Source: Clostridiaceae bacterium (GTDB taxonomy: Bacteria; Bacillota; Clostridia; DSM-8532). From it: DNA of 64,000 nt. Numbering within the stretch: the stretch's first letter is position 1; every line of letters starts with the position of its first letter. Position numbers and translations under genes: made by a program. Below are positions 23,651 through 50,133 of this stretch, one piece after another. The notes beneath the pieces are model-generated. The model was not told the origin of the DNA. It saw only the letters and a list, made by a program, of their open reading frames with translations, and made no database searches. The DNA lies in the NCBI GenBank assembly GCA_012728015.1, contig JAAYFY010000009.1, positions 1-64,000 of the forward strand, read 5' to 3'.

Positions 23651-24016
23651 TTATAATGAATCCAAAACCTTTTCCAGGGCTTTTACCGCCTTTTGGAAAG
23701 AACTGTTCCCCGCTGCCCGGGGAACCTCACTCTCCACTTTCTTCAGGCAGGAAAGGGCCTTTTTCACCATTTCTTCCTGCTCACGGAAGCGTGCCGCAAG
23801 GCTCAGCCGCGCTTCATAGGCTTCCAGGGCTGCCCGCCCTTTCCGTATGCTGTCGTGGACGCCCTGCCTGCTTATGCCAAGTTCCCCGGCGATCTCTCCC
23901 AGGGAGTAATCGTTGTTATAATACATATCCAGGATTTCATACTGGCGGGCTGTGAGAAGCTGCCCATAGAAATCCAGCAGTATGGAAACCTTGTAAAACT
24001 CGGCACTTTCAGCCAT
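23651..24016 (-). CDS. ylxM: YlxM-family SRP-associated helix-turn-helix protein
   Basis: A 121-residue protein with a sigma-factor-like HTH: LLDFYGQLLTARQYEIL, then YNNDYSLGEIAGELGISRQG and VHDSIRKGRAALEAYE. The family modulates SRP GTPase activity and is co-transcribed with ffh. I chose ATG 24016 because it leaves 11 residues before the conserved block, as in relatives. TTG 24046 (AGGGTG six bases upstream) and GTG 24067 are alternatives. Confidence 0.9.
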   Translation of the reverse strand: MAESAEFYKVSILLDFYGQLLTARQYEILDMYYNNDYSLGEIAGELGISRQGVHDSIRKGRAALEAYEARLSLAARFREQEEMVKKALSCLKKVESEVPRAAGNSSFQKAVKALEKVLDSL

Positions 24017-24088
24017 ATCGGCCCCGGTTTTTAAATTATCCTCCAACGGTTTCACCCTGTCAAGCACTTTTGCTTTACATGCCCATTC

Positions 24089-24117
24089 ATTATATGACCA
24101 TGCGGCTGCCTTGTCAA
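24089..24117 (-). promoter_or_regulatory. Consensus sigma-A promoter of ylxM-ffh-rpsP-khpA
   Basis: TTGACA and TATAAT, both perfect, with a 17-base spacer on the minus strand. Confidence 0.9.
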
Positions 24118-24154
24118 GACCTTTATCAGGTTATGTCATTCGGGTTTAAATCTT

Positions 24155-24537
24155 GTCATTGTGAGGACGCCACCGCCCTTGTAATTACGAGGATCAGCTC
24201 GCCGAAACAATCCCATAATAGCAAAAAGCTATTAGAGTTTATACCCCGCAATAGCGTGCATAAGACGTGCTGTTTCTGTCTCGAATGACTCCGCAGGATC
24301 AGATGAAGTTGTATGAGAAATGCGCTAATCGAGCAGGAAAAAACAACCGGATGTTGTTTTTAGCCGAAAGTCGCACCGATGCGACGTTACCGGCGGCCCT
24401 GCGAGATCAAGCATGAGCATGCACAACTTCCTGCGACGAGGACTGAAGGAGAGACTGAACAGCACGGCTATAACACGCAATAACTGGCGAACACAGATGA
24501 GATTGCCGCGCTTCGATGACGCTCCGCTCGCAATGAC
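24155..24537. repeat. Inverted-repeat-bounded intergenic element (copy B)
   Basis: A GTCATTGTGAG at 24155-24165 faces CTCGCAATGAC at 24527-24537. The right end also matches the 50087-50125 repeat over GATTGCCGCGCTTCG and GCTCCGCTCGCAATGACA. The about 280-base interior shares nothing obvious with the other copy and contains the multi-stem fold at 24292-24435. No transposase is present. It behaves like a MITE or a repeat that has gained an insert. Confidence 0.6.
24292..24435. ncRNA. Candidate structured RNA or fold-back DNA element
   Basis: Five nested or neighbouring pairings fit one multibranch fold. The outer stem is CGCAGG+AAGTTGT (24292-24297, 24306-24312) with ACAACTT+CCTGCG (24423-24435) and an 8-base bulge. 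Inside are GCAGG/CCTGC (24333-24337, 24398-24402), AAAAACAAC/GTTGTTTTT (24339-24347, 24353-24361), GCCG/CGGC (24363-24366, 24391-24394) capped by GTCGCA-CCGA-TGCGAC (24370-24385), and GCAT/ATGC (24411-24422). I do not recognise the family. Pairing is equally possible on either strand, so direction is open. Confidence 0.45.
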
Positions 24538-24603
24538 ATATTAATCCTGTATTGCAACCATACTAAAGCAGAAGCGGTATCGGAGCCCTCCGCGAGGTGT
24601 CGG

Positions 24604-25257
24604 ATGAAGAACAGGTTTCTTGGTTTTGTCTACGTTATACTCTATTTATTGCTGGTTATTTCAGCCGTAACCCGGTTTGGAGAAAAAGGTTGGTCTGTCG
24701 TCTGGATGTCGTTTGCGCTGGGCGTGCTTTATCTTCTGCCGGCGATACTGGAGAGGCTTCTTGGCATTATCATTCCTCCGCTTTTGAAATATATGATCCT
24801 GGCTTTCATGTTTCTATGCCTGCAAATGGGGGCCATAATGTCCTTCTATGAAAGGTTTGAAGGGTGGGACAGCTTCATCCACCTGGTGTCAGGCTTCATT
24901 ACGCCTGCTCTTGCCCTGTCGGTGATCAATATCCTCAACAGGAACCCCATGCCCCTAAGAACCCTGGCCCCCGGGTTTATTTTTGTTTTCATGATTCTCT
25001 TTGCGGCAGGCATCAGCCTTTTATGGGAGTATATCGAACTTATCAGCGATACCATTTTGGGGACCAACCATCTGAACGACACTCCTTTGGGTAACGGACA
25101 GGTGGATATCGGCCTTATTGACACCATGACCGATCTTCTGTTCTCACAGTTGTCATCCCTTTTGGCCTCCTTCTGCCTTTACCGTGCCATAAAGAGGGAC
25201 AGATGGCTTAGCATTTCGCGAATACTGATCACACGGGAAAATCATCAGGCCAACTGA
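24604..25257 (+). CDS. YjdF/DUF2238-like integral membrane protein
   Basis: A 217-residue protein with about six hydrophobic helices (near residues 5-22, 30-48, 58-76, 88-106, 118-138, 175-193). Family-type motifs are WDSFIHLVSGFITPAL and the SLLWEYIELISD and DTMTDLLF segments; the conserved D, H, E and D fall at membrane edges. GAGGTG lies upstream of the ATG. It appears to be followed by trmB after 77 bases, but that adjacency says nothing about its role. Function of the family is unknown. Confidence 0.85.
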   Translation: MKNRFLGFVYVILYLLLVISAVTRFGEKGWSVVWMSFALGVLYLLPAILERLLGIIIPPLLKYMILAFMFLCLQMGAIMSFYERFEGWDSFIHLVSGFITPALALSVINILNRNPMPLRTLAPGFIFVFMILFAAGISLLWEYIELISDTILGTNHLNDTPLGNGQVDIGLIDTMTDLLFSQLSSLLASFCLYRAIKRDRWLSISRILITRENHQAN

Positions 25258-49952: not shown

Positions 49953-49978
49953 TTGGTGTCAAGCGAGACTTTTTTGGT

Positions 49979-50125
49979 GTCATTGCGAGGGACGAAGTGA
50001 CGAAGCAATCTCTTGCATATACAGTATTACGCTGCAATAAAGAGATTACCACGCCCGGCTTTGTCAGGCTCGCAATGACAGTCCTGGGGATTGCCGCGCT
50101 TCGCCTGCGCTCCGCTCGCAATGAC
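49979..50125. repeat. GTCATTGCGAG inverted-repeat element (copy A)
   Basis: GTCATTGCGAG (49979-49989) faces CTCGCAATGAC at 50069-50079 and again at 50115-50125. Inside are AAGCAATCTCTT and AAGAGATTACC, a second inverted pair. The right part recurs in copy B near 24500. No coding capacity. This style of short palindromic repeat is scattered in many bacterial genomes. Confidence 0.75.
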
Positions 50126-50133
50126 AGGAAGAA

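Follow-up and report, generated by a model that had tools for sequence, protein, structure and literature searches.

The window analysed here is a stretch of 64,000 nucleotides from a Clostridiaceae bacterium (contig JAAYFY010000009.1, assembly GCA_012728015.1). Between a small gene at 23651-24067, which precedes an SRP54-like gene, and another gene at 24604, it holds an element of ~200 bp (~24266-24466). The inner part of this element, 24292-24435, had been singled out in a sequence-only reading as an unrecognised multibranch fold and a candidate new structured RNA. The structure is real and well supported; it is ordinary in being a dispersed repeat, and unusual in that its RNA is a divergent relative of TwoAYGGAY (RF01731), an orphan RNA family. 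Just upstream of the small gene, the minus strand carries a sigma-70 promoter-like site at 24089-24117 that matches 12 of 12 positions (TTGACA-17-TATAAT), and the element lies ~150 nt further upstream.

Folding of 24292-24435 gives -53.8 kcal/mol on the plus strand (z -4.27) and -54.0 kcal/mol on the minus strand (z -4.82), and on neither strand was any of 200 dinucleotide shuffles equally stable. The nested layout first described was borne out: it comprises a bulged outer stem (base CGCAGGA/TCCTGCG), a stem in the centre and two hairpins, one resembling a terminator and the other capped by a tetraloop and based on GCCG/CGGC. The 144 bases allotted to it contain this nested fold but not the whole structure, which goes further out and is closed by a terminal stem (24266-24282/24451-24466); the folding energy of the extended segment, 24266-24464, is -72.8 kcal/mol (z -4.86). 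Intact copies fold at z -8.2 and -11.8, compared with -4.3 to -4.9 for the window copy. The GCCG/CGGC base is what erosion has left of GCCGGCA/TGCCGGC, a 7-bp stem found in sister copies, and the consensus has no separate conserved hairpin where a small side hairpin had been placed. No tRNA was found in 24292-24435. The parts of the element are listed in Table 1.

Table 1. Coordinates of the element and of the host palindrome around it, in window positions
Feature	Positions	Strand	Evidence
Host palindrome, left half: TGTCATTGTGAG ... GAAACAATCCC, REP-like TGTCATTGCGAG-type repeat	24154-24214	none	Repeat counts; congener loci
P1 5' strand, variable terminal stem (CGTGCTGTTTCTGTCTC)	24266-24282	+	Fold; comparison between genomes
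P2 5' strand CGCAGGA, pairs with 24429-24435, nearly invariant	24292-24298	+	Fold, alignment
P3/P4 5' strands and 5' side of first tandem G.A (GA 24317-24318 opposite GA 24415-24416)	24306-24318	+	
P6-P7 5' strands and second tandem G.A (GA 24331-24332 opposite GA 24403-24404)	24328-24337	+	
Hairpin H1, terminator-like, AAAAACAAC-CGGAT-GTTGTTTTT, GGA loop	24339-24361	+	
Hairpin H2 on GCCG/CGGC; window loop CCGA (GGA lost), basal stem eroded	24363-24394	+	
3' strands of P7, P6, P5, P4, P3 and P2, ending ACAACTTCCTGCG; conservation is highest within this part	24397-24435	+	
P1 3' strand, terminal stem (GAGACTGAACAGCACG)	24451-24466	+	
Host palindrome, right half: GAGATTGCCGCG ... CTCGCAATGACA	24509-24538	none	Repeat counts; congener loci

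The window's own genome (G000) contains 8 near-full copies of the element and many fragments, in both orientations; in all, the window copy counts as one of about 9. Thirty-three copies (none from genome G043) were used to build a covariance model, R1, which recovered the element in 8 of 32 family genomes, at 1-22 copies per genome, and detected none outside this one family in a search of 391 genomes of the class. The other carriers are G003, of the same genus, and G005, G022, G023, G043, G044 and G046, of a second genus (22 copies in G043, 6 in G022 and 2 in G005). Metagenome bins of Clostridiaceae/Bacillota make up most of the named records that contain the conserved 18-mer, and searches by DNA similarity returned no plasmid or phage relatives. 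Copies are intergenic, and their neighbouring genes are mostly unrelated from copy to copy. Orientation relative to these genes is balanced (+,+ 7 vs -,- 8), and convergent intergenic sites are preferred over divergent ones (14 vs 2). One copy lies near a ribosomal protein L10 leader matched by Rfam (L007 13-156), and in two G022 copies (L083 44-360 and L038 1330-1580) the H2 region contains large inserts of another repeat, GCCTGGTCGTTACGC...GGCTATGCGACC.

Covariation was measured on an alignment (A3) that had not been fitted to the structure, with 500 shuffles as control. Standard pairs make up 97.9% of pair cells, and 18 of the 51 base pairs change on both sides. The covariation score is 0.262 against 0.107 when shuffled (reached in 0 of 500), and sliding the structure along the alignment gives at most 0.054. 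Covariation is thus very strong, and its absence from the stems, named beforehand as grounds for giving up the fold, was not what the homologues showed. Pair cells with G-T outnumber those with A-C by 44 to 12, and therefore the window's plus strand is the folded strand, acting as RNA or, less likely, as single-stranded DNA. A coding origin was considered and rejected: by inspection, some copies have an open frame and others have stops or frameshifts in the same region, and changes follow base pairing, not codons (P7 reads GTGAGG/CCTCGC in some copies and ACGAGG/CCTCGT in others). Genome G043, although left out of model building, was found by the model and retains the two tandem G.A motifs and, on different stems, the two GGA loops; its helices around the tandem G.A also differ (GTTC-GA-TTGGGG/CCCCAA-GA-GAAC). 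These comparisons indicate that the core of the element is under selection.

Comparison of the copies yields a consensus in which the terminal stem is variable, a conserved stem contains two tandem G.A motifs, and two hairpins with GGA loops join at a three-way junction. P1 is wholly different in sequence between genomes yet still self-complementary (GTGCAAGTGGCACAGTC..., CATGCTGTTCAG..., CATGCTTATCAG..., GCCATGGTG...). In the P3/P4 region, AAGTTGT/ACAACTT is replaced by AAGCTGT/ACAGCTT in G043 copies. The first tandem G.A has G.A in 31 and A.G in all 33 of 33 copies, the second has them in 31 and 32, and the pairs flanking the second covary (CTC/GAG, ATC/GAT, GTTC/GAAC, GCTC/GAGC). The H1 stem is swapped wholesale between copies (AAAATCTGC/GCAGATTTT, AAAAGCAGC/GCTGCTTTT, GATCGAC/GTCGATC), as is that of H2, while the GGA loop is present in at least 47 (H1) and at least 49 (H2) of 53 copies, several of the non-GGA cases being parsing failures. 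In H2 the window copy is a clear exception. With its CCGA loop, its eroded basal H2 stem and the lowest full-length score in its own genome, it is degraded.

So, is the element a TwoAYGGAY RNA? This family was described with AYGGAY-type GGA hairpins, a stem containing two tandem GAs, and an external stem of poor conservation (PMC4333381). The fold had been called unrecognised, correctly in the sense that neither the window segment nor the sister copies match an Rfam family at gathering score. Nonetheless, when the sister-copy loci were scanned against all 4227 Rfam families, TwoAYGGAY was the top weak match (23.9 bits; four matches, two of them full-model). In the reverse direction, 23 viral contigs were picked by a two-hairpin pattern, of which 16 were scanned with Rfam and four proved to be TwoAYGGAY; R1, built from the element alone, matched three of these four (E 1e-4 to 1e-3) and gave no comparable match at pattern-selected loci without Rfam support. 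Another viral pattern was unspecific, and its loci served as background only. Across 563 kb of viral and plasmid contigs, the only R1 matches at E ≤ 10 were three Rfam-confirmed TwoAYGGAY RNAs (E 4e-4 to 6e-3).

The element and TwoAYGGAY (clan CL00106) share a long stem, a three-way junction and two side-by-side YGGA-loop hairpins joined by AG, of which the window copy keeps one. They also share the tandem G.A motifs, which agree with the family's description and recur in G043, and the variable external stem. The element differs in lying ~20 bits under the family cut-off, in its stem lengths, in having many copies per genome and in its host palindromes, and on these comparisons we class it as TwoAYGGAY-like and not as a member of RF01731. 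A strong TwoAYGGAY on Agathobacter rectalis plasmid NZ_CP143948.1 (L259 1438-1723; 159 bits in Rfam) likewise sits within an inverted repeat (56 nt, 93% complementary), upstream of a GGDEF gene. In viral contigs L249 (2848-2967 and 3669-3755) and L251, TwoAYGGAY occurs <1 kb from a C4 antisense RNA, in the fashion of P4-like satellites.

The flanking genes of the window copy are kept in all four congeners, G001-G004, and the element is absent there. At the orthologous intergenic region, G001, G002 and G003 have only a TGTCATTGNGAG...GAAGCAATC-like repeat resembling repetitive extragenic palindromic (REP) sequences, and G004 has neither repeat nor element. The 12-mer TGTCATTGCGAG has 63 exact copies in the own genome, and repeats of this kind occur, with or without the RNA element, in all five searched genomes of the genus (33-110 exact 12-mers per genome); pairs in opposite orientation are common in the listed congeners. 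Because congeners hold the repeat alone at the orthologous site, the simplest reading is that the RNA element was added later inside an older REP-like repeat. A second TGTCATTGCGAG palindrome in the window, at 49978-50126 (three exact 12-mers, inverted), has no RNA element. The element is bracketed in G023 by GGGGCTGTCTCAAAA arms, and these arms occur as core-less short palindromes as well, both in G023 and in non-carriers. In G043, the terminal stem GTGCAAGTGGCACAGTCTTT itself forms the element end, and copies lie in or beside fragments of older copies. At L140-L159 and L190-L200 of this genome, the nested or adjoining elements often come with a tandem 3'-end module. Nesting in G043 suggests self-targeted insertion. 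Residence in the middle of palindromes, which differ between copies, is common, and may reflect either choice of target or a descent that core and arms share.

The unrelated neighbours, together with the congeners that have the flanking genes and lack the element, lead us to read it as mobile. With a probability of about 0.78, the window copy is a decayed copy of a dispersed, protein-less, non-autonomous ~200-bp element carrying a structured TwoAYGGAY-type RNA. That it is repeated, absent from orthologous sites and structured on the plus strand follows directly from comparison. The sequence-only reading was right about an RNA-like structured fold, but the fold belongs to a repeated, mobile-looking element and is not a new RNA gene in its own right; as for a transposon end, no known transposon was identified, although the segment is part of a dispersed repeat. 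An enzyme supplied in trans would copy the element around, together with or into host palindromes. Transcription might occur as a small RNA or within a neighbouring transcript, and the paired GGA loops would then bind a CsrA-type dimer, following the published prediction for TwoAYGGAY (PMC4333381). By this analogy, CsrA binding by the paired loops is possible, and we hold it with modest confidence; having lost one GGA loop, the window copy is probably no longer good at it. The 788 kb of DNA scanned contained no csrA-like pattern, a result that is uninformative on csrA in the host.

Several observations weigh against this interpretation. No mobilising enzyme was identified, as neither Y1 transposase nor reverse transcriptase nor IS110 fits the carriers, and G023 copies inspected by eye have no clear target-site duplication. 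The plus strand at the window locus has no consensus promoter upstream of the element, and no transcript was seen. No copy reaches the RF01731 gathering score (best 23.9 vs 43 bits), and the window copy itself had no TwoAYGGAY match in the Rfam scan. The viral TwoAYGGAY loci were preselected by a pattern requiring two GGA hairpins, and R1 scores only 11.8 bits on the clostridial Agathobacter TwoAYGGAY, though at the correct place and junction.

A miniature element acting at the DNA level, in which a single-stranded DNA fold is read by an HUH or similar transposase and the RNA is irrelevant, would account for the palindromic ends, the many intergenic copies and the residence in REP-like palindromes, and a single-stranded DNA substrate could also give the strand bias. 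We consider it unlikely: what stays invariant lies deep in the core (the loops and the tandem G.A motifs) while the ends vary freely, the core is related to an RNA family, and the carriers G043, G022 and G005, with 22, 6 and 2 copies, have no REP (Y1) transposase at E ≤ 1e-5. The own genome has one Y1 transposase gene, with no TGTCATTGCGAG repeats in the surrounding 2.8 kb. A structured RNA that acquired two GGA-loop hairpins by convergence, unrelated to TwoAYGGAY, would fit the sub-threshold Rfam scores and the weak Agathobacter result, but is improbable given the reciprocal model matches, the same H1-AG-H2 order on a shared junction, and the fact that TwoAYGGAY as published also has tandem G.A motifs and an outer stem that varies.

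Could the element instead regulate its neighbours as a leader or terminator? Its plus strand runs in the direction of the gene at 24604, H1 resembles a terminator hairpin, and Rfam types TwoAYGGAY as cis-regulatory. Such a role is nevertheless very unlikely, as copies have mostly unrelated neighbours and run equally often with and against them, no conserved downstream genes were seen, the plus strand here has no promoter-like site, and four congeners lack the element at this locus. We give even less credence to a relic of a retro-element or RNA-guided transposon (group II intron, IS110 bridge RNA, TnpB/IscB guide), suggested by a structured RNA within a mobile element and by short G043 fragments that look 5'-truncated, a sign of reverse transcription. 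The cleanest of these fragments keep both ends and so are internal deletions; most carriers (G000, G005, G023, G043 and G046) have neither reverse transcriptase nor IS110 transposase at E ≤ 1e-5, and Rfam gave no intron or guide match.

Among known repeats, the flanking TGTCATTGCGAG palindromes resemble the TGTC-tagged REP dimers of REPINs (REP doublets) and the CGTC superfamily of REP repeats (PMC3116915, PMC3733652) in their high copy number and inverted pairs. These features belong to the flanking repeats only and not to the element, and a REP-associated tyrosine transposase (RAYT) gene flanked by the same repeats was not found, the lone G000 Y1 gene having none nearby. Unlike a REPIN, the element has an RNA core that is conserved, and it lies within such repeats as an additional insert or cargo of ~200 bp. 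RNA-motif repeats akin to miniature inverted-repeat transposable elements, such as ERIC, YPAL/RU-2 and Correia (PMC2229807), and bcr1 of Bacillus cereus are likewise short, non-coding, dispersed and folded. To our knowledge, these repeats have simpler hairpins, none with the element's junction or loops.

We know of no demonstrated function for TwoAYGGAY since its description in 2010. The present case suggests that palindromic repeats can be a vehicle for the spread of TwoAYGGAY-like RNAs through genomes. More speculatively, and with considerable doubt, such RNAs may be selfish elements that insert at palindrome centres, their GGA loops titrating or recruiting CsrA and their copy number tuning host regulation. 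CsrA-sponge RNAs are established in Gammaproteobacteria, and the element suggests a repeat-spread regulatory RNA outside that group. A dispersed, covarying, palindrome-borne relative supplies dozens of natural variants within single genomes, and these allow a concrete test of the CsrA-binding prediction. In broader terms, the element shows that a structured RNA can reside within REP-like repeats.
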